IMG/VR virus record: IMGVR_UViG_3300044809_000038
Coordinates: 1-58,968 of that record
DNA: 58,968 bases
Source: a virus
Reading direction: 5' to 3' (one strand)
The translations under genes and the position numbers were made by a program. The notes under the pieces were generated by a model. That model made no database searches. It was not told the origin of the DNA and saw only the letters and a list, made by a program, of their open reading frames with translations. Positions 11,167 to 35,318 of this stretch are shown one piece after another (position 1 is the stretch's first letter; each line of letters opens with the position of its first letter).

Positions 11167-11195
11167 ACTCTAGACCCCGAATCGGGGTGTGTCTA
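11167..11195 (-). promoter_or_regulatory. Promoter with palindromic operator in the spacer
   Basis: -35 TAGACA (11195-11190), spacer CACCCCGATTCGGGGTC, -10 TAGAGT (11172-11167). The TAG of the -35 is also the stop codon of the upstream cytidylyltransferase gene (11193-11195), so the unit boundary is compressed to zero. Confidence 0.8.
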
Positions 11196-11690
11196 GCCTT
11201 CGCGCATGAGCCGGATCGACTCGTCGGCGTCGAGGTCGGCCGTGACTCGCCGGCGCAGGTCGGTCGTCGAGATCTCGCGCTGTCGGTTGACGTAGCACAG
11301 CTCTATGCCGTGCTCGTAGAGCCACGTCGGCGTGAACTGCATCTGCGCGTAGTAGTCGCGGCCCGTCTCGGGTGCCCAGTCCGAGCCGATGATCACCAGG
11401 TCCGGCTTCGCCTCCAGGATGGCCGGCTTGCTGTCGGCGCCGCTCACGTTGGGTATCACCTTGCTCACGTAGCGGATCGCCTGGAGCACCTCGGCGCGCT
11501 CCTCGTAGCTGCACACGGGGCGCCGACCCTTGAACTCTTCGACGAACTCGTCCGTGTTCAAGCCGACGATGACCTGGCCGTACGGGTGCCCGGCGGCGAT
11601 ATAGCACTGCCGCAGGAAGTCGACGTGGCCGGCGTGCAACAGGTCGAACGTGCCGCCGGTGTAGACGACGAACGATGTCCGCGGTCGCAT
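11193..11690 (-). CDS. Cytidylyltransferase-like nucleotidyltransferase (TagD/RfaE type)
   Basis: A 165-residue protein with the nucleotidyltransferase signature YTGGTFDLLHAGHVDFL (HxGH at residues 19-22) and ISTTDLRRRV near the C-terminus, the ISSTxIR-type motif of glycerol-3-phosphate cytidylyltransferases. The family condenses CTP or ATP with a phosphorylated alcohol or sugar to make an activated donor. Next to two glycosyltransferases, it probably supplies a CDP- or ADP-activated group for modification of phage DNA, virion or host envelope; the substrate is not readable. ATG at 11690 is coupled by ATGA. Confidence 0.8.
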   Translation of the reverse strand: MRPRTSFVVYTGGTFDLLHAGHVDFLRQCYIAAGHPYGQVIVGLNTDEFVEEFKGRRPVCSYEERAEVLQAIRYVSKVIPNVSGADSKPAILEAKPDLVIIGSDWAPETGRDYYAQMQFTPTWLYEHGIELCYVNRQREISTTDLRRRVTADLDADESIRLMREG

Positions 11691-12412
11691 CACGCCACGC
11701 TCCGTTCCAACTCGCGCCGCAAAGCCGCGACGTCGTCCATCAACCGGGTCGCCTCGTACCGGTAAAAGATCGCCTGGTCGCCGTTCGGATCCTGCTGGCG
11801 GTAGGTGTCGTCCCACTCGCCCTTGTTGACCAGCGGATGCAGGTGCTCGATCACGACGTCGGCGCGATAGGTGAGGTTCGTCGACTCGCCCCAGAGTTTC
11901 CACACGTTGTCGACGTACAGGTGGCCGAGCTCGGGCGGTGCGATGTAGCCCAGCGCGCCGAACACGGTCGAGGTCATCATGCAGGAGGTGGGGATGGACG
12001 CTCCGTGCACGAGGTCGTTGCCGTAGGCGAAGCTGACCGGCCGCTCCCTCAATTCGCCCCAGAGCCGCCAATCCCAGGCTTCGGCACGGGGCACGTGGTC
12101 ATCGCCCAAAACAGCCAGAGCGAAGGACTCAGGGGCCGCTAAGGCCGCCATGCGGTTGAGCGGATAGACAAAACCGCGGTGCACGACGGGGGCCGGCATG
12201 ATCATCAGCCGAACGTCGAGATTGGCGTAGCCGCCCATCTGATTCACTACCCAGCGGTAGCCGCCCATGTCGTCGACCATCGGATCGTCGTCACACACGC
12301 CCACCAGCAGCTGCACGTCCTTCAGGGCACAGGTGCTGTGACATGCCTCGATCAGTCGGGCCAGGCCGCGCGGCCGGCCGCGCGTCGGCACCAGGATCGT
12401 CAGCTCTCTCAT
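11690..12412 (-). CDS. Glycosyltransferase, GT-A/family-2-like
   Basis: A 240-residue protein. The N-terminus MRELTILVPTRGRPRGLARL is the nucleotide-binding start of family-2-like glycosyltransferases. Acidic motifs DDDPMVDD (~41-48) and LGDDH (~102-106) are candidate donor/metal-binding DxD sites. No TM segments, so it is cytosolic. It is the second GT of the 11.2-14.7 kb cluster and adjoins the cytidylyltransferase, which suggests transfer of an activated sugar or polyol. Acceptor unknown. Confidence 0.75.
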   Translation of the reverse strand: MRELTILVPTRGRPRGLARLIEACHSTCALKDVQLLVGVCDDDPMVDDMGGYRWVVNQMGGYANLDVRLMIMPAPVVHRGFVYPLNRMAALAAPESFALAVLGDDHVPRAEAWDWRLWGELRERPVSFAYGNDLVHGASIPTSCMMTSTVFGALGYIAPPELGHLYVDNVWKLWGESTNLTYRADVVIEHLHPLVNKGEWDDTYRQQDPNGDQAIFYRYEATRLMDDVAALRRELERSVA

Positions 12413-14111: not shown

Positions 14112-14714
14112 CTACCACCTGTCCGGTTGGCCTGATGTGTTCGCGCCGTGGTGATACCAGAGCCACGAGCGATCGGGACGGTGCACGATCTTGGCGCCGA
14201 GCTCGATACAGCGCAAGGTGAAGATCCAGTCCTCGCCGCCGGACAGGCCGGCCTCGGGCGTGTCCGGCGTAGCGGCCGGCCACGCGAAGCCAGCTTCCTT
14301 CGCCAGCTCTGTCCGGACCAGCGTGACGATCGTCGTCTGGTGCGGACTGGCCGGGTCGAACGTCTTACCGAAGTGGCCGAGCGGATCGGAGCCGAGCGGT
14401 GAGCCATCGGCATCGACCACGACGTAGTAGCTGTAGACGTAGTCGGCGCCGGTCGCCTCGGCCGTCTCGGCCAGGCCCTCCAGGTGCCAGGGCATCATCG
14501 CGTCGTCGTCGTCGAGAAAGGCCGTCCAGGGCGTCGAGGAGTGCGACAAGGCGAGTCCGCGGTTGATGGCCGCGCCTTCGTGCTCCTGGTCCATACGGAC
14601 GGACAGGGCCCCAGGACAGAGCACCTGAGACCGCACCGACTCGACGGCGCGCTGGAGCATGGCTTCGCGGGTCGGAATCGTCGGAATGACCACCGTGATG
14701 TCCTGGCCCCTCAT
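14112..14714 (-). CDS. Glycosyltransferase family 2-like
   Basis: A 200-residue GT-A protein. It has MRGQDITVVIPTIPTREAML at the N-terminus, acceptor-region GAAINRGLALSHS, the FLDDDDAMMPWHL motif (~66-78) providing the DxD metal/donor site, and GGEDWIFTLRCIELG (~160-174) as the GT2 ED motif region. Cytosolic. It probably works with the second GT and the cytidylyltransferase in one pathway. Overlaps the previous gene by 4 nt. Confidence 0.85.
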   Translation of the reverse strand: MRGQDITVVIPTIPTREAMLQRAVESVRSQVLCPGALSVRMDQEHEGAAINRGLALSHSSTPWTAFLDDDDAMMPWHLEGLAETAEATGADYVYSYYVVVDADGSPLGSDPLGHFGKTFDPASPHQTTIVTLVRTELAKEAGFAWPAATPDTPEAGLSGGEDWIFTLRCIELGAKIVHRPDRSWLWYHHGANTSGQPDRW

Positions 14715-17432: not shown

Positions 17433-17463
17433 TACGGGCCCCTCTCTCGGCTGTCTCGCACGG

Positions 17464-17551
17464 GGGGACGCCAGGATTCGAACCTGGAACCTCGGTCGCA
17501 CCGGTTGCCCGGCGGGCCCTGCCGCGCTCTGCCGCTTTGAGCTACGTCCCC
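17464..17551 (-). tRNA. tRNA-like gene 1, atypical anticodon region
   Basis: 88 nt on the minus strand. Acceptor GGGGACG/CGTCCCC is perfect, the D arm TAGCTCAAAGCGGCAGAGC is normal, and the T arm CCAGG-TTCGAAT-CCTGG is perfect. The 38 nt between D and T arms are abnormal: no 5-bp/7-nt anticodon arm with U33 is present. The best local fold is CGGC-AGGGCCC-GCCG followed by a CGGT-GCG-ACCG hairpin like a long variable arm. No 3' CCA is encoded. Isotype cannot be assigned. It shares an internal motif with tRNA-like gene 2. Confidence 0.6.
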
Positions 17552-19926: not shown

Positions 19927-21705
19927 CTAGGGCCGTGTGCGGATGTTCATGCCGTGGACGGTCGACGACACCTTCGTTTGGATCTGGCGCTCCCTGGTGG
20001 CCTTGGGAGCCTGGAGTGAGCCCGTGCCGGCGCGGCTCAGCTCGGTGATCAGGTGGACGTCGGCGTCCATGCGGTCGGGGGAGTCCTGGCTGGGTAGCCA
20101 GGTTGCCATCTGGTGCTCCAGCTCCATGAAGTGCCCGACATGGTGCACGGCGCCCGACGAGTACATGGGCGCGATGAACTCGGCGCGCAGCCGCTTGTTC
20201 ACGATCGGGTTGACCTGGCGCGTCGGCGGACCGGCGGCCGGCCAGCTCAGCAGGATCGGCACATTCGGCCACATCATCCGCAGCTGGTCGTCGATCGCCC
20301 AGCGGTCCTGGAGGCTGTCCTCGGGCACGACGAGCTGAGCCAGGGCGTGCTCAGCGGCCATCTTGTCCGGGGCGACCGGCCAGGGCTGCCGGGTGATCGA
20401 GCGGTAGCACTCGTCGAGGATGCGCGCCTGGCGCCTGATCAGCTTCCACTCGGTGCGGATCGAGCGGCGCAGCCCGGACAGCGACTTCTCGTAGGCCAGG
20501 GCCGAGCCGCCCCACTTCGCCATCGCGAAGATCGCTCGCCTGATCCACTCGCCGACCGTGTAGTGCCCGGAATCGTCGGCCAGCACGTAGTAGTCCCCGT
20601 CGGCCCCGATGCCGCCGGTGATGATGCCGGCCTCGTCGCCGGCTCCCGTGTTGTCGGCCGGGTCGACCATCGTCAGCACGCTGGCCATCTCGGGCGCGGC
20701 CGACACCCGGTTGCGCTCGAACCATTGGCGCTTGAAACTTCCGCCCTCGGGCGCACTGGGAACGCCCTGGTACAGCGCGTTCCACCAGCGGACGCCGATC
20801 TGGTCGGGCTTCGCCTCCCACTCCTCGCGGGTGCGACCGCGGGCCGAGACGAGCCACTCGCCCGGCTCGCGGCCCAGCGGATCGTTCTGGCCGGCCTGCG
20901 CCGGGATGTTGAGCCGGGCGTAGATCGGCGTGACCCGCGCGTCGTCCTCCTTGATCAGCCAGCCGGACAGGTCGTCCTCGTGCCAACGGGTTTGGATGAC
21001 GATCACGATGGCGCGGCCAGACAGTCGCGCGCTGGCCACCGCCTGGAACCAGTCCTTCGCGGCCTGCCGATAGACCGGGCTGTCGGCCTGCTTGGCGTCC
21101 TTCAGCGGGTCGTCGACGATCAGCACGTCGACGGGCCGGCCGGTGAACGCGCTGCCGACGCCGACGGCCAACATGCCGCCGGCACCCTTGCGGCCCGGTA
21201 TGTCCGTCAGGGCCCAGTTGGTCTGCTGTGCGCGGTCCGGGTCCAGGGTGAGGCCGAGCACGTCGACCCGGTCGAGGTCCTTCCGCTCGCCTTTGTAGCC
21301 GGCGCCGTGCAGCTCGATGAACTGCCGCACGGCCAGGGTCGGCTGGCTGGCGATGCCCTGCTCGTAGCTGGCCACGGCGATGCGGAGGCTCGGGTCGCGC
21401 AGCAGCAGCCATAGGCTGCCGTCCTGACTGATGCGGGTGGTTTTGCCCTCCTGCGGCGGCGTGCTGATGATCCAGCGGCGCTGCACGCCGTGCCACGCCT
21501 GGGTAATGACCTCGTCAAGCTTGTCCAGCAGCGGCGTCTGCACGCTGTCGCGGCGCAGGAACTGGGCCAGGTGGCCCGGCATCGGGAACCGCGCGATGGC
21601 CTCACGCCGGCGCAGCACCCGGTCGAGCCGGGTCTGGAACAGCTTCCGCTCCGTGGCCGACAGGTCGCCCACAACCTGCTGGACGACGTCGCCGGTCGAG
21701 GTCAC
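19927..21705 (-). CDS. terL: Terminase large subunit
   Basis: A 592-residue packaging motor. N-terminal ATPase: Walker A-like TPPQEGKT (82-89) and Walker B VLIVDDP (194-200), followed by the coupling region IQTRWHEDDLSGWL. C-terminal RNase-H-like nuclease: acidic residues in VLTMVDPADNTGAGDEAG, ALAYEKSLSG and DSPDRMDADVHL. The protein cuts concatemeric DNA and pumps it through the portal. ATGA overlap with terS. Confidence 0.95.
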   Translation of the reverse strand: MTSTGDVVQQVVGDLSATERKLFQTRLDRVLRRREAIARFPMPGHLAQFLRRDSVQTPLLDKLDEVITQAWHGVQRRWIISTPPQEGKTTRISQDGSLWLLLRDPSLRIAVASYEQGIASQPTLAVRQFIELHGAGYKGERKDLDRVDVLGLTLDPDRAQQTNWALTDIPGRKGAGGMLAVGVGSAFTGRPVDVLIVDDPLKDAKQADSPVYRQAAKDWFQAVASARLSGRAIVIVIQTRWHEDDLSGWLIKEDDARVTPIYARLNIPAQAGQNDPLGREPGEWLVSARGRTREEWEAKPDQIGVRWWNALYQGVPSAPEGGSFKRQWFERNRVSAAPEMASVLTMVDPADNTGAGDEAGIITGGIGADGDYYVLADDSGHYTVGEWIRRAIFAMAKWGGSALAYEKSLSGLRRSIRTEWKLIRRQARILDECYRSITRQPWPVAPDKMAAEHALAQLVVPEDSLQDRWAIDDQLRMMWPNVPILLSWPAAGPPTRQVNPIVNKRLRAEFIAPMYSSGAVHHVGHFMELEHQMATWLPSQDSPDRMDADVHLITELSRAGTGSLQAPKATRERQIQTKVSSTVHGMNIRTRP

Positions 21706-22169
21706 CCGGCACTCTCCAGCGGCACCGCGGTCAGCCGGCGCAGCGGCTGCACGTCACCGGGCGCGCCGTCGGTCAGCTCGACGATACGAGTGATGGCGTC
21801 CTCGACCTTGCTGGCCTGCACTTCGATCTTCATGGCGGCGTCGAGGCCCAGGAACTTCCGGTACTCGCGGCCCAGCGCGATCATGACCTCGATCGAGCGC
21901 GGCTCGCCACGCAGGGCCCGCGGCATACCGGCCTGGCGCAGCAGGCGCATGTTCTCCAGCTCCTGGGCGAACACCTGTTCCCGCAGGTCGGCGCTGTCGT
22001 CGATGACGCGCTGCATTTCGCGGCCGAGCAGCGTCCGGGCTTGCTTCTCCGAGAGGTTGAGCGAACGAGCAGCATTCGGCACGGTGCTGCCGCTCGCCAC
22101 GAGCTCCATCATCTTCCGGGCCAGGCCGAGGTTCTTGACCCTGGTGGCGACGCCGTCCTCCTTCGTCAT
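21702..22169 (-). CDS. terS: Terminase small subunit
   Basis: A 155-residue protein. N-terminal helix-turn-helix (MELVASGSTVPNAARSLNLS, then EKQARTLLGREMQRV), central helical oligomerisation region, C-terminal segment with KVEDAITRIVELTD. Genome-recognition subunit, directly upstream of and coupled to terL by ATGA. The ATG lies 6 nt after a TAACCT -10-like hexamer, consistent with a leaderless start. Confidence 0.85.
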   Translation of the reverse strand: MTKEDGVATRVKNLGLARKMMELVASGSTVPNAARSLNLSEKQARTLLGREMQRVIDDSADLREQVFAQELENMRLLRQAGMPRALRGEPRSIEVMIALGREYRKFLGLDAAMKIEVQASKVEDAITRIVELTDGAPGDVQPLRRLTAVPLESAG

Positions 22170-22204: not shown

Positions 22205-22807
22205 CTACCAGCCGATGATCTCGGCGAGCCGCTCGGTGCAGCCCTGTAGTCCTGCCGAACCCAGGTTGCTCATCTCGTGCACGTGCAGCAGCGGGCGCTC
22301 CAGGGCGGCGTGCTCGGCGTATTCGAAGAAGTTGCGCGACCGCGTGAACTGCCCGCGCACCCATGATTCCTTCTGGTGACTGCCGCGCTCCTGGCAGCGG
22401 CGCTCGACGATGTCCGGCGACGCCGTGACCAGCACCACGTGCGCCTCGATCTCGGCTGCCATGAGCGCCTCTACGAAGCGGCGCACGCCGAGCCGGGCGC
22501 CCTCGCCGAGCAGCACGGGCGCCTCGGCCGCCGCGACCCCGCTGACGATCCACTCCTCGACCGGCACGATGGCGCTCATCGCCATGGCGTCGGTGCCGGG
22601 GAAGCCGGCCGGGTGCTTGCCGGCACGGGCGCCGAGCTCGACCGCGATGGCACCAGGATCGTGCCGATGGGCCGGCTGGAACAGCCACTCGCGGCGCGGC
22701 TGCCCCTCGTCGGGCGTGCTCTCGACCCGGCCGTAGGGACTCGTGAGGCGACTCATGATCGCCGACTTGCCGACCGCCGGGCCGCCGGTCAGGTACAGGG
22801 CCTTCAC
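22205..22807 (-). CDS. P-loop kinase, candidate hydroxymethyl-base DNA kinase
   Basis: A 200-residue protein with GTG start. P-loop LYLTGGPAVGKSA at residues 4-16; a Mg-binding/lid region is suggested by VVLVTASPDIVERRCQERG. It resembles small nucleotide kinases. In hypermodification clusters a P-loop kinase phosphorylates 5-hydroxymethyl groups on DNA so that an amino acid can replace the phosphate. Its place beside the dioxygenase, transferase-like and PLP genes supports that role; an ordinary nucleotide kinase remains possible. GTGA overlap with the PLP gene. Confidence 0.7.
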   Translation of the reverse strand: MKALYLTGGPAVGKSAIMSRLTSPYGRVESTPDEGQPRREWLFQPAHRHDPGAIAVELGARAGKHPAGFPGTDAMAMSAIVPVEEWIVSGVAAAEAPVLLGEGARLGVRRFVEALMAAEIEAHVVLVTASPDIVERRCQERGSHQKESWVRGQFTRSRNFFEYAEHAALERPLLHVHEMSNLGSAGLQGCTERLAEIIGW

Positions 22808-23700
22808 GCTTTCACCTTTGCTTTCGTGCCGATCTGGCCGCCCACGATCCACAGGGCGGTAGTGCCGTCGCGCCGCATCCACCAGGGCGGCTTCGTCTCG
22901 TCGAGATACCGGACGACCTTGCCTTCGTAGGTCGGGTGCAGGTCAATGCCATCAGCCTGACCTGGCATCCGCTGGGCGTAGCTGGCGTAGCGCATGGCGT
23001 GCAGGTCGATGACCTCGATGCGCACGGGTGTCAGGTCGAAGTCGACGCCGAGCCGGTCGAGGCGCTCGTGCAGCCAGGCGCGCCGGCTCGGGCCGATACC
23101 GACAAGCACGACGCGCCGAACGCCGACCGGGCCGTACCGGTGCAGGCCGTACAGCACGCCGGCCGCCGAGTTGCCTGAGCCGAAGGGGATCACCAGTGTC
23201 TCGACGTTCACCGGCAGGTTGTGCACCTGCTCGGCGGCGGAGCGATGGAACGCCTCGACGTCGGCCGGCGTGGCGTCGCCCGGCGGCGTGATGCCGTAGT
23301 TGAGCACGTAGGAGCCCGGCTCGTTCGCCTGGCGGATGCGCGCGGCCCGCTGGAGATACGGGTTGAAACCCACCGGCACGAACTCGAACTCGCCGCCGGC
23401 CGAGGCCGCGATGACGGGCGCGATGTGTCGCACGACTGTCTCAGGTCGGGTGGCGCCGTAGATCAGCGTGCAGGGCAGGCCCAGGTCGCGGGCCACGACG
23501 GCGGCCATGGCCGATTGTGGGCTGAGCACCGAGCTGGCCGAGACGATGCGGGTGGCGCCGCGCTCGGCGGCCAGCTGGAGCAGGTGTTGGCAGGCCCTCA
23601 GCTTCGAGCCGTTGACGCCGAAGTCTGCGCGATGATGATCTTCTCGTTTGTACCACCGCCCGTTGCGTAGCTCGACAGGGGTGAGGTTGACGGTGGGCAT
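22804..23700 (-). CDS. PLP-dependent enzyme, fold type II (ACC deaminase/D-cysteine desulfhydrase-like)
   Basis: A 298-residue protein. Candidate PLP-binding Lys33 in the motif VNGSKLRACQHLL, preceded by RWYKREDHH. The phosphate-binding loop IPFGSGNSAAGVLYGL lies around residues 165-180. Fold type II PLP enzymes catalyse beta-elimination, replacement and deamination. In phage DNA-modification pathways PLP enzymes trim or decarboxylate the amino acid attached to the base. ATG at 23700 has a GAAAGGA site. It overlaps the upstream frame by 103 nt, an unusually long overlap. Confidence 0.8.
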   Translation of the reverse strand: MPTVNLTPVELRNGRWYKREDHHRADFGVNGSKLRACQHLLQLAAERGATRIVSASSVLSPQSAMAAVVARDLGLPCTLIYGATRPETVVRHIAPVIAASAGGEFEFVPVGFNPYLQRAARIRQANEPGSYVLNYGITPPGDATPADVEAFHRSAAEQVHNLPVNVETLVIPFGSGNSAAGVLYGLHRYGPVGVRRVVLVGIGPSRRAWLHERLDRLGVDFDLTPVRIEVIDLHAMRYASYAQRMPGQADGIDLHPTYEGKVVRYLDETKPPWWMRRDGTTALWIVGGQIGTKAKVKA

Positions 23701-24785
23701 CGGTCGTCCTTTCTGGTGCCGAACGCGCCAGCGGCCACGCGGGCGCCGAAGTCGTTCTCGAAACACGGCCAGTCGCCGTCCATCACGATGACCTGGCCCG
23801 TGTTCAGGTAGTGGTTCTGCTTGTCCGGCACGACGCCGGGGTCCAGCGGGTTGCACTCCAGCCGTAGGCGCGGCGGCAGCTCGGCCGCGCGGGCGTCCCA
23901 GATGGCTTCGAAGCGGGTGCCGAACTTCGACTCGGCCCGCACGAGCCGGTTGTAGAGCAGGTCGTTGTAGACGTTGGGGTAGCGGCGCTTCGGCCGGTGC
24001 CAGCTCTTGTACGTGCACAGCGCCGACTCCAGCGTCAGGTAACCCACGTCCGGGTTGTCCGGGTTGCGCACCCTCGCAATCGACAACAGGTGCTCACCCA
24101 GGCGCTCCAGCTCGCCGAGCACCTCGGGCGGATAGTCGCCCCGAAAGTTCGGGTTGCGGTCCCACCAAATCCACTCGTCGAGGCCGTGCACCAGGGCCAG
24201 GCCATTGCGGTGGCTCTTGCTGCCGTCCTTGTCGCGCAGCAGCAGCGTGTCGGCGTCGGGCAACCAGTGTCGGCCGCGGGCGCCGACGCCGAGCAGCCGG
24301 ACGTACTCCAGGTAGCTCCAGGCGCTCAGCCGGCCCATGGTGTAGATCTCGTTGGCGGCCCGCCACACGCCGGTCCAGTCACCGGCGGCGGCATGGCGCC
24401 AGTACGCGTCCTGGCCGGCGCGCGTCAGGTTGAGGTAGCTGCCGACCGCCTCCGCGAACTTGCTTTTGTGGTAGCGGCGATCGGTGTCCCATTCGAGGTC
24501 GCGGTAGTGCTGCCGCCAGAACTTGACCACGCGGCCGGCCTGCTCGGGCCGGCTGCCCTGCTGCATCAGGAGCAGGGTCGTCACGGGGTTCTGCGTGTTG
24601 CCGTTGATGAACGCGGCCCAGGCGCGCTGCTCGACGTCCCAGTTCAGCTCACGGGCCAGGTAGGGCAGCACGTAGTAGACGGCGCCCGGATGGCTGCGGT
24701 AGCGCAGATGGAACGTGTAGAACCGCTGGAACACCTCGTGCCGGTACTGGGTGAGCCGGAAGTCGCTGCCGGCCTTCAGGTCCAT
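23598..24785 (-). CDS. Amino-acid:DNA transferase-like protein (aGPT-PPlase/ADDT superfamily)
   Basis: A 395-residue, largely helical protein: YRHEVFQRFYTFHLRYRSHP, GAVYYVLPYLARELNWD, WAAFINGNTQNPVTTLLL, WDTDRRYHKSKFAE, GRLSAWSYLEYVRLLG, KDGSKSHRNGLAL, CTYKSWHRPKRRYPNVYNDL. This pattern matches my recollection of phage proteins called amino acid:DNA transferases/alpha-glutamyl-putrescinyl-thymine pyrophosphorylases, which attach amino acids to activated 5-hydroxymethylpyrimidines in DNA. The final ~40 residues look like read-through into the PLP gene and may be non-essential. ATG 24785 (TGATG) preferred to GTG 24788. Confidence 0.65.
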   Translation of the reverse strand: MDLKAGSDFRLTQYRHEVFQRFYTFHLRYRSHPGAVYYVLPYLARELNWDVEQRAWAAFINGNTQNPVTTLLLMQQGSRPEQAGRVVKFWRQHYRDLEWDTDRRYHKSKFAEAVGSYLNLTRAGQDAYWRHAAAGDWTGVWRAANEIYTMGRLSAWSYLEYVRLLGVGARGRHWLPDADTLLLRDKDGSKSHRNGLALVHGLDEWIWWDRNPNFRGDYPPEVLGELERLGEHLLSIARVRNPDNPDVGYLTLESALCTYKSWHRPKRRYPNVYNDLLYNRLVRAESKFGTRFEAIWDARAAELPPRLRLECNPLDPGVVPDKQNHYLNTGQVIVMDGDWPCFENDFGARVAAGAFGTRKDDRCPPSTSPLSSYATGGGTNEKIIIAQTSASTARS

Positions 24786-25753
24786 CACGTCTCCAGTTGG
24801 TCGAGGTAGGCGTCTTCGATGGCGGTCGGATCACCGCTGAGCGCCGCGCCCGAGCGGCCACCAATCAGCCGGCCGGACTGCTTCTTGCGCATCGACGTCG
24901 CCGAGCGGCCGTTAGCCGGACTCAGATTCCCTTCGGCAACACGACTGGCAATGTCACGTTCGCGCTCGGTGCGCCGCCGTCGGGCGTAGGTGGCCTCGAC
25001 GGCGGCGCTGAAGCAGTCCTTCAGGCCACGGAGGGAGTAGTAGACGATGCTGTAGCGATAGCCGTCGACCGCGGTCTGGCGCATCGGCGTGACACCGTGG
25101 ACGAGCTGCTGGCCGGGGAAGAACACGGCCCAGCCGTCGCGGCACGGCACGACCAGGTCGTACTCGGGCACCGACAGGTAACCGCCGGTGACGCCTCGGC
25201 GCAGCACCGGCATCGCCGACCACACAGGGTAGTTGAACACGTCGCGGTGATAGGGCAGCTGTGCCGACCGGTTGATGACGCCGCTGGTGTAGTGCGTTTC
25301 GCCGAGCTTCCAATCAGCATCGACGGCCGCGACCGTGGAACGGTCGGCCTCGACCCGGTCGGGCACGATCTCGCGCAGCATGTCGATCAGCCGGCTGGCC
25401 CATTCGTCCAGGACGCGTTCGGTGTCCGGGTTGTCGATGGCCATGCTGGCCGGCTGGCAGCCCTCCCGGCCGTACAGCGGGCGCCGCGGTGTCCAGCCGA
25501 AGGTCCTGCTGGCGTTGCGCAGGCCGGCCCGGTACGCGGTGTAGCTGGCGCCGCTGGTGGCGAGCACGGCCCGGCGTAGGTCGCCGACCGCGGTACGGTC
25601 CAGCGGCAGGTAGGCCAGCACCGGTTCGCCCGTGTCGCCATCGACGACGAGCTGCGCCGAGTGGATGTTCGGCAGCAGCGTCGGCACGGTCTCGCCGATC
25701 ATCTTGCCGGCGACGTCGGCCGCCATGGTGCGGCCTGTCCCCACGAAGTCCAT
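24785..25753 (-). CDS. TET/JBP-family 2-oxoglutarate/Fe(II) dioxygenase
   Basis: A 322-residue protein. Double-stranded beta-helix core at ~160-250: QLPYHRDVFN supplies the HxD metal ligands (H169, D171), GGYLSVPEYDLVVPCRDG and VFFPGQQLVHGVTP supply the distal His (H219), and GYRYSIVYYSLRGLKDC supplies the 2-oxoglutarate Arg (R233). This arrangement is diagnostic of TET/JBP enzymes, which hydroxylate 5-methylcytosine or thymine in DNA. No cytosine C5-methyltransferase is encoded in the window, so thymine to 5-hydroxymethyluracil (JBP-like) is the more likely reaction. ATGA overlap with the ParB-like gene. Confidence 0.85.
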   Translation of the reverse strand: MDFVGTGRTMAADVAGKMIGETVPTLLPNIHSAQLVVDGDTGEPVLAYLPLDRTAVGDLRRAVLATSGASYTAYRAGLRNASRTFGWTPRRPLYGREGCQPASMAIDNPDTERVLDEWASRLIDMLREIVPDRVEADRSTVAAVDADWKLGETHYTSGVINRSAQLPYHRDVFNYPVWSAMPVLRRGVTGGYLSVPEYDLVVPCRDGWAVFFPGQQLVHGVTPMRQTAVDGYRYSIVYYSLRGLKDCFSAAVEATYARRRRTERERDIASRVAEGNLSPANGRSATSMRKKQSGRLIGGRSGAALSGDPTAIEDAYLDQLET

Positions 25754-26427
25754 CAGTCGGCCTCGGGCGCCTGGGCGCCGGTCGCGTCGGCCAGCAGCCG
25801 CACCAGCACGTCGGGCGAGTTGTCGACGTCCCAGCGTTCGGCCAGATCCTTGAGCTGCTCCACCACCCACACGTAGACCGGGTTGCTGAACATCAGCATG
25901 ACCATGCGGGTCTTCGTGGTCTCGTACTGGGTGGCCATCTCGTCGATGGTCTTGCGGCTCGCGGTCTGGATCGGGTCGCCGAGCGCGTCGGCGACGGCGG
26001 TCCCGCCGGTCTCCTCCAGCGCGGCGGCCAGGTCGTCGAGGTTGCCCTGGTCGTAGCCGGCCAGACTGAGACTGCCGTTCTGTTCGATGGCCGTCAGCAG
26101 CTCCAGCAGGCTGGACTGGTCGTAGCCGAGCGACTTGTCTCGGGCCCGGTTGTCCCATGCCAAGATCTCCAGGGCGCGCTCGTCGCTGCACCGCACGAAC
26201 TCGGCCCGGATGTGCGTCCAGCCCAGCTGGTCCCTTGCGGCGCGGTAGGTCGAATTGCCGGCCAAGATGTGCCCCGTGTCGGCGTGCACGACGATCGTCC
26301 GGTACTGGCCCATCTCGCGCAGCCGGGTGGCGATCTCCCCGATGTTGCCGCGGTTGGCGTTGCGCGGATGTTCCGAGATCGCGGTGACCGGCACGTCCCG
26401 CACCTCAACGACATGAACCTTCTCCAT
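25753..26427 (-). CDS. ParB-like N-terminal-domain protein
   Basis: A 224-residue protein. Residues ~8-110 form a ParB/sulfiredoxin-type domain: VTAISEHPRNANRGNIGEIA, QYRTIVVHADTGHILAGNST, ARDQLGWTHI, EILAWDNRARD. A helical C-terminal region (TIDEMATQYETTKTRMVMLM) follows. Phage ParB-like proteins range from DNA-binding factors to nucleases and are frequent neighbours of TET/JBP genes. It may target or protect modified sites. Start at 26427 overlaps the RusA-like gene stop by ATGA. Confidence 0.8.
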   Translation of the reverse strand: MEKVHVVEVRDVPVTAISEHPRNANRGNIGEIATRLREMGQYRTIVVHADTGHILAGNSTYRAARDQLGWTHIRAEFVRCSDERALEILAWDNRARDKSLGYDQSSLLELLTAIEQNGSLSLAGYDQGNLDDLAAALEETGGTAVADALGDPIQTASRKTIDEMATQYETTKTRMVMLMFSNPVYVWVVEQLKDLAERWDVDNSPDVLVRLLADATGAQAPEAD

Positions 26428-26903
26428 CAGCCTTCGCTCTCGTCGGTGATGACCACGTAGAGGCGTGGCTCCTTGCTGTATTCCGAATCCTCGTGCCGAG
26501 AAACAATGCTCTGGCTGGCGCGGACGATGTGGCGCGAATTGTCGTCGGGCACGACGCCGTAGCCCACCAGGCAATCAATGATCGGCTTCAGGCTGGGCGC
26601 GATGTTGTCGGCGTCCATTTTGCGATTGTTGCCGGGATAGTAGACAAGCTCCACGCTGGCCTTTTCCAGGCGCAGCGGCGGCAGGTTAGCCTGCTTCGCC
26701 GAGAGCAGGGTGATCAGCTTGAGGTCGTTCTGCAAGTCGCGCAGCTGGGCCCAGTGCATCTTGCGCTGCTCGTTCGCGGTGATGGTGGGCCGGTCGATGA
26801 GCAGTCGTAGCTTCCATCGCCGCTGGCCGGGCGGTCGCTCGGGCGTAACCACGTGGGCACCCTTCATGCACCAGCAGCTCGTGGGCCGATGCGGTTGGCT
26901 CAT
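26427..26903 (-). CDS. RusA-like Holliday-junction resolvase
   Basis: A 158-residue protein. RusA signature: NRKMDADNIAPSLKPIIDCL, then GYGVVPDDNSRHIV, with the conserved acidic residues DxDN and DD. Cleaves branched recombination/replication intermediates; together with ERF and SSB (33.9-37.5 kb) it completes an annealing-resolution pathway. The ATG at 26903 is 6 nt after the -10 TATGGT, so translation is probably leaderless. First gene of the hypermodification operon. Confidence 0.85.
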   Translation of the reverse strand: MSQPHRPTSCWCMKGAHVVTPERPPGQRRWKLRLLIDRPTITANEQRKMHWAQLRDLQNDLKLITLLSAKQANLPPLRLEKASVELVYYPGNNRKMDADNIAPSLKPIIDCLVGYGVVPDDNSRHIVRASQSIVSRHEDSEYSKEPRLYVVITDESEG

Positions 26904-34337: not shown

Positions 34338-35318
34338 TCAGATATCGAACGCGTGCCGCCACAGCGGCAAGGTGTGTTTGATGCTGAACTTCTCGGCATA
34401 TCGACGAGCCGCCGCGCCCATTTCCAGCCGCATCGCCTCGTCGTGCACGAGGTCGTTCACATAGGCGTACGCCTCGGCGCTTGATCGGTACAGGTAGCCG
34501 GTGACTCCGTGGTACACCGCCTCGGTGTACGGCTCGATCTTGCGGGCCACGATCGGTATCCCGAGCGCCGCCATCTCCATCGCCTTGATGGCCGACTTGC
34601 TGGCATTGAACACGTGGCGCTGGAGCGGTATGACCGCAACGTCGAAATCGATCGTCCGCAGGTACGCCTCGACGCCGCTGACCCACGGCGTGTGCCGCAC
34701 GTTCGGCTCGTCACTCGGTACCCAGGCCGACTGCCCGCCGATCACGTGTGTCTCGACGCCGTCACGCGCTGCCCAGTGTGCCCACCAGGGCTTCATCCAG
34801 GCGACGTCCATGGCGTGCGTGTCGCTGCCCGCCCAGCCGATCACAGTCCGGTCGCGCCGCGGTCGCTCGTGGCTCAGCAGCCAGTCGGGTACCGCGTTCG
34901 GCACCGGCACGATGTCGTCGTTGTACTTCCCCAGAGCCTGCGCCAGCGACCTGGTGCTCACCGTGACCCGATCGGCCAGGGCCAGCCCCAGCTCCAGCGT
35001 GCGGAGCACCTCGGGCCGCGAGTACACCTGATAGGCCGGCGATGACGGGTCGACGTGGAACAGGTCATCGTCAAGGTCGACCACCAGGCGCGGCGTCGCC
35101 CGGCCGGCCCACTCCTGCCAATACGTCGCCACCTCGGGATCGGCGATCCGCTGGCCGAACAGGACGCCGCTACTGGTGACGTCCTGTTCGTAGATGCGGT
35201 GCCGGTACGTGACGTCGTCGCCGGCCGCAGTCATCGCCTCGAACGGCACCTTGACCCGGTAGTAGGCGCAGCCGTCGGTCTCCGGATCAGCCGAACACCA
35301 GCCGAACACCGCGGCCAT
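34338..35318 (-). CDS. Glycosyltransferase, GT-B/GT4-like
   Basis: A 326-residue protein. N-terminal domain [37 protein letters not shown]-terminal domain [51 protein letters not shown]. Similar to phage and bacterial GT4 proteins using nucleotide sugars. Its location between SSB and ERF, away from the other GTs, makes DNA (for example hydroxymethylated bases) a plausible acceptor. This is inference. ATGA-type coupling upstream. Confidence 0.8.

Follow-up and report, generated by a model that had tools for sequence, protein, structure and literature searches.

A candidate thymine hypermodification cassette that joins a TET/JBP-type dioxygenase to a ViI-type transferase and PLP enzyme in an uncultivated phage

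General pathways of base hypermodification have reportedly been set out by Lee (2018, 2022) and by Iyer (2013), and in Salmonella phage ViI, as Lee et al. in 2022 are said to have found, serine is attached and a PLP enzyme decarboxylates the attached serine. In Pseudomonas phage M6 (5-NedU) the transferase (gp51), a PALP-family enzyme (gp52) and the 5-hmdU kinase (gp54) are encoded together, and the same cassette contains gp53, which we take to be a radical-SAM-type enzyme and which sets M6 apart from the locus described here. The DNA of ViI carries 5-(2-aminoethoxy)methyl-dU (5-NeOmdU; PMC6449724; PMC11721090), and 5hmdU has been described as a shared intermediate that is built into DNA (PMC6449724). 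The five-gene thymidine hypermodification system of Rhodococcus phage Tonitrus consists of ParB, a TET-like protein, aGPT-Pplase2, a 5-hmU kinase and a hypothetical protein (PMC11955845).

The window analyzed here is the whole of an IMG/VR virus record, a linear contig of 58,968 bases. Its minus strand encodes, from 26903 to 22205, a RusA-like protein, a ParB-like protein, a TET/JBP dioxygenase, an amino acid:DNA transferase (ADDT), a fold-II PLP enzyme and a P-loop kinase, in that reading order, and two terminase genes follow:

26427..26903, minus strand: RusA-like Holliday junction resolvase, 158 aa (phrog_34, 3e-13; PF05866, 5e-4)
25753..26427, minus strand: ParB-like N-domain protein, 224 aa (phrog_723, 9e-32)
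24785..25753, minus strand: TET/JBP-family Fe(II)/2-oxoglutarate dioxygenase, 322 aa (catalytic residues, profile, predicted fold)
23598..24785, minus strand: amino acid:DNA transferase (ADDT), 395 aa, ViI-like ("serine-type") class (PF18724, 2e-15)
22804..23700, minus strand: fold-type II PLP enzyme, 298 aa (PALP, PF00291, 3e-13)
22205..22807, minus strand: P-loop nucleotide kinase 3, 200 aa, Walker A GGPAVGKS (Ploopntkinase3, PF18751, 6e-20)
21702-22169, minus strand: small terminase-like gene, next after the kinase (gene order)
19927-21705, minus strand: large terminase, after the small terminase-like gene (gene order)

The first-pass annotation had proposed a base-hypermodification cassette of these genes in this place and order, and the proposal is supported: the six genes are real and tightly coupled, with stop/start overlaps from RusA to the kinase of 1, 1, 1, 103, and 4 bases, their third-position GC (0.84-0.93) is strongly coding, and family matches give every gene the counterpart it had been assigned. 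RusA is probably an upstream neighbor that lies outside the modification chemistry. The high GC content and the closest terminase match, at 34% to that of Tonitrus, indicate an actinobacterial host, and a host search in species genomes returned a single good locus, in an Actinomycetota MAG. No end repeat was found at the ends of the record, and joining them gives an in-frame ORF without a clear single gene. A tRNA-Ala (GGC) is predicted downstream of the terminase region (17462-17551, minus strand), and PADLOC returned a weak ParB-domain match and nothing else. The same phage has several sugar-related genes (11193-12412, 14112-14714, and 34338-35318, minus strand), with glycosyltransferase matches in PHROGs and Pfam and a cytidylyltransferase-like protein among them; these could serve virion-protein glycosylation, with DNA glycosylation less likely.

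Tonitrus and Gordonia phage Wooper share the ParB-TET start and the kinase type with the window (the TET and kinase of Tonitrus are 48 and 44% identical to those of the window), but they have an M6-like transferase and a flavin/NAD-type fifth gene where the window has a ViI-like transferase and a PLP enzyme. The Mycobacterium phages of the JAMaL/Zemanar group (Bclasvirinae) have ParB, TET, transferase, kinase and terminase in the same order, with 58% identity in the transferase and 46-48% in TET, but their cassette is without the PLP gene. Glutamicibacter phage Montesquieu has homologs of the ADDT (46%), the PLP enzyme (36%) and the kinase (31%) in a row, but its front end is annotated as "thymidylate synthase/pyrimidine hydroxymethylase" together with aGPT clade 1, and both TET and ParB are absent in the region read. 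It also encodes two tandem PF18751-like kinases (L005, 8878-10071) that are 40% identical to each other. The ViI transferase Vi01_199 and PLP enzyme Vi01_182 are homologous to those of the window (25-31% identity), but the ViI genes are scattered, while M6 differs in its transferase class, in its kinase family (PF18748) and in its thymidylate-synthase-type front end. What is distinct here is a TET front end joined to a ViI-type transferase and PLP pair, which is a less common combination and is widespread in uncultivated phages.

The dioxygenase had been singled out by the first-pass annotation for the residues H169, D171, H219, and R233, and these are readable as claimed and invariant across 39 aligned sequences, in which H169, D171, and H219 of the HxD...H triad are the iron ligands and the downstream R233 is the 2OG contact. 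The match of this protein to Tet_JBP (PF12851; E 0.0023) lies below the cut-off at 17.6 versus 34.9 bits, a cut-off that is exceeded in 24 of 27 long related records, and a profile of the dioxygenase finds Naegleria Tet first (5e-4). Its AlphaFold model (pLDDT 85) is best matched by NgTET1, CcTet, TET2, and CMD1, and as the TET structures and CMD1 rank above AlkB/ALKBH5, the closest solved fold is that of TET. Relatives are present in 86 phage records, the best being about 45-51% identical. The enzyme is predicted to convert thymine to 5hmU in DNA.

The transferase is assigned to its family by PF18724 (57.5 bits versus a cut-off of 26.2) and by its fold. A sequence search against the PDB gave no match, and it was the fold search alone that found one: the model (pLDDT 91) has as its sole convincing solved matches 8z2m and 8z2n, the 5-phosphomethyl-dU (5-PmdU) glycinyltransferase of phage PaMx11, with a Foldseek probability of 1.00 although the E-values are 0.02-0.13, and with TM scores to 8z2m of 0.49 (query length) and 0.64 (target length). 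The phage transferases fall into two classes, one like M6 gp51 (Wooper, Tonitrus, Reprobate, Kozie) and one like ViI Vi01_199 (the window, JAMaL, Montesquieu). A profile built from ViI and Cygsa01 only places the window protein with Vi01_199 (8e-23) whereas the M6 gp51 profile gives no match, and a profile comparison of the window protein with M6-like transferases gives 97.6% probability and aligns an E..LC..KS motif. In dereplicated TET loci the class of the transferase goes with the enzyme that accompanies it, as the ViI-like class is accompanied by a PLP enzyme at 43 loci (including that of the window, L001) and never by a flavin-type enzyme, while the M6-like class is accompanied by the flavin-type enzyme at seven and never by a PLP enzyme; one further TET locus combines the two transferase classes and also has a PLP enzyme.

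Whether the base to be modified is thymine or cytosine can be approached through the genes that precede this transferase. In three IMG/VR scans and the phage records, a ViI-like transferase was found at 145 loci, which form 89 clusters at 90% identity, and within 8 kb of the transferase 52 clusters have TET, 24 have a thymidylate-synthase (TS)-family gene, 13 have neither and none has both (Fisher 1e-12). For clusters with at least 4 kb on each side the corresponding numbers are 26, 17, 4, and 0. The transferase, the PLP enzyme and the kinase stay while the front gene changes. In whole records PF12851, an independent check on the weak TET matches, is found in 27/27 of the TET-type and 0/18 of the TS-type, and PF00303 in 0/27 and 18/18, respectively, although these 45 records were picked by local label (one, L163, by the ParB cassette alone) and the test therefore shows only the absence of the other front end. 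On the ADDT tree the front-end label changes at least four times, at least two of these changes being forced by well-supported branches, and a synthase-type actinophage group that includes Montesquieu is nested among the TET-type sequences; the exclusivity of the two front ends could partly reflect phage lineage. The simplest reading of this exchange is that both front ends would deliver 5hmU in DNA, the TS-family genes acting, to judge from their annotation and from M6-type phages, as dUMP hydroxymethylases. An aGPT-PPlase1-like gene accompanies the TS front end in 23/24 clusters (e.g., L119, L186, and L209) and TET in 0/52, and it may serve the nucleotide-pool route only. The idea that TET-route phages are those without their own polymerase was rejected, as 14/27 records of the TET type and 10/18 of the TS type have a family A polymerase (Fisher p = 1), and family B polymerase was not found above the cut-off.

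The possible source of 5hmU in the window record is TET, and the earlier statement that neither a cytosine methyltransferase nor a hydroxymethylase is encoded is borne out, as a C5-cytosine methyltransferase (C5-MTase) and a TS-family gene are both absent from the record, an absence that is not absolute for a linear IMG/VR contig. That annotation had allowed either a thymine route or one that starts from 5mC, and of these the thymine route is favored by the exchange of TET and TS beside the same back end. In the cytosine route, 5mC made by the host or by an unseen phage would be oxidized to 5hmC by TET and then phosphorylated and decorated. We regard this route as improbable, even though the solved structures nearest to TET are 5mC dioxygenases and phage TETs that act on 5mC have reportedly been described by Burke et al. 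in 2021. The C5-MTase that would be expected beside a phage TET converting 5mC to 5hmC occurs in only 3/27 related TET-bearing and 2/18 synthase-bearing records, which is no association, the same ADDT, PLP enzyme and kinase stand behind TS-family front ends that lead to hydroxymethyl-uracil in characterized phages such as M6, and the characterized relative of the ADDT acts on 5-PmdU.

On the thymine route, the nature of the end base depends on the ADDT and the PLP enzyme. The latter is 31% identical to Vi01_182, and its match to the ViI/Cygsa01 profile (2e-58) is far stronger than that to M6 (7e-5), so that with the transferase match above, which also used ViI and Cygsa01 alone, the window has both members of the ViI-type (5-NeOmdU) back end. 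The first-pass annotation had suggested that a fold-II PLP enzyme might mean a chemistry unlike the described end products. This suggestion is not upheld, as 346 phage records contain homologs, most of these records being ViI-like Ackermannviridae, which have 5-NeOmdU as their base, and the M6 cassette also has a PALP-family enzyme; the enzyme is the expected partner of a ViI-like transferase and hence gives no sign of new chemistry. It is predicted to be the decarboxylase of the attached amino acid. Elimination or deamination is the usual chemistry of fold-II PLP enzymes, and the closest solved structures by profile are D-cysteine desulfhydrase and ACC deaminase, K33 falling on the GGNK-motif lysine of the former in the alignment. 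In addition, the identity between the ADDT and its ViI counterpart is only about 26%, and so the attached amino acid may differ. Thymine hypermodification in which a different amino acid is attached, or in which the PLP enzyme carries out elimination, deamination, or racemization instead, would give an end base that is not 5-NeOmdU-like; this is a less likely but still plausible outcome, given that K33 and the C-terminal HPxYEGK motif are invariant with ViI and that ADDT and PLP enzyme, the ViI pair, occur together in 44/52 TET and 23/24 TS clusters.

The kinase belongs to PF18751, in contrast to the HMUDK family PF18748 of M6, and its gene is present in 52/52 TET clusters. Its profile gives generic P-loop matches in the PDB and nothing more specific, its Walker A motif is intact and conserved, and it is predicted to be a 5-hydroxymethyl-dU DNA kinase. 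The public names of these families are of a different kind, as PF18751-type kinases are called "terminase small subunit" (phrog_800) and the TET family "queuine tRNA-ribosyltransferase" (phrog_6059; both PHROGs are seen in L006, 785-1759 and 2834-3460). Such names would suit a cassette that has decayed or has a regulatory function and yields no hypermodified base, as when the kinase-like protein acts in packaging, but they look like propagated misannotations. We consider such a cassette very improbable, since TET, the PLP enzyme and the kinase have intact catalytic residues, the ADDT retains its conserved positions, a distinct small terminase-like gene follows immediately after the kinase, and the set is retained in 52 TET clusters.

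Of the TET clusters 44/52, and of the synthase clusters 0/24, have the ParB-like protein no more than 8 kb from the transferase, and it also adjoins TET in loci without ADDT or kinase, so that it tracks the dioxygenase step rather than the finishing steps. Going by this gene neighborhood, it probably serves that step, for example by targeting. In Mycobacterium phage Vincenzo (L003, 1-3152) the same ParB domain forms one protein with an N4/N6-type DNA methyltransferase, followed by the PLP enzyme and kinase, and this fusion would fit a DNA-targeting role of ParB; as TET and ADDT are not detectable in the whole Vincenzo genome, the cassette genes can occur apart. Tentatively, and with somewhat less than even confidence, we suggest that ParB is devoted to targeting or loading TET, which would make thymine hydroxylation in replicated DNA site-selective on the way to an aminoalkoxy-thymine and would replace the ViI-like nucleotide-pool route while using the same finishing enzymes. 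ParB-TET loci also form a second class, in which kinase and transferase are mostly missing (L013, L018, L040, L041, L046, L051, L054, L059, and others) and a glycosyltransferase-like gene adjoins TET in 13 of the 21 loci inspected. The one such sequence tested is a PF20691 TET-Associated Glycosyltransferase, which suggests a base-J-like end product for that class.

We propose that the cassette likely makes a hypermodified thymine after replication, with TET, kinase, ADDT and PLP enzyme acting in that order to give a 5-NeOmdU-like base. Thymine already present in phage DNA would be oxidized to 5-hydroxymethyluracil by the TET/JBP-type dioxygenase, probably steered by ParB, and the P-loop kinase would phosphorylate the hydroxymethyl group to 5-phosphomethyl-dU. 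The ADDT would then displace the phosphate by an amino acid, for which serine, joined through its oxygen, is the most likely candidate, and the fold-II PLP enzyme would decarboxylate the attached amino acid to leave a 5-(2-aminoethoxy)methyl-dU-like base, which may protect against host restriction. Gene identities, folds, catalytic residues, the class of the ADDT and PLP enzyme and the exchange of TET for TS are observed here, and we infer each reaction, the sequence of steps, which amino acid is attached, the final base and the role of ParB.

The exchange of front ends and the link between ParB and TET are quantified in the present analysis, and they indicate that 5hmU in phage DNA can come from two interchangeable front ends, hydroxymethylation of the nucleotide or oxidation of thymine in DNA, which feed the same enzymes for amino-acid attachment and trimming. 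The substrate of an uncharacterized group of phage TETs, thymine or methylcytosine, thereby becomes directly testable, and the ParB-like protein stands out as one that probably takes part in the dioxygenase step. Decoration of thymine is a known kind of anti-restriction disguise, and enzymes such as these would be useful for the installation of amines in DNA.
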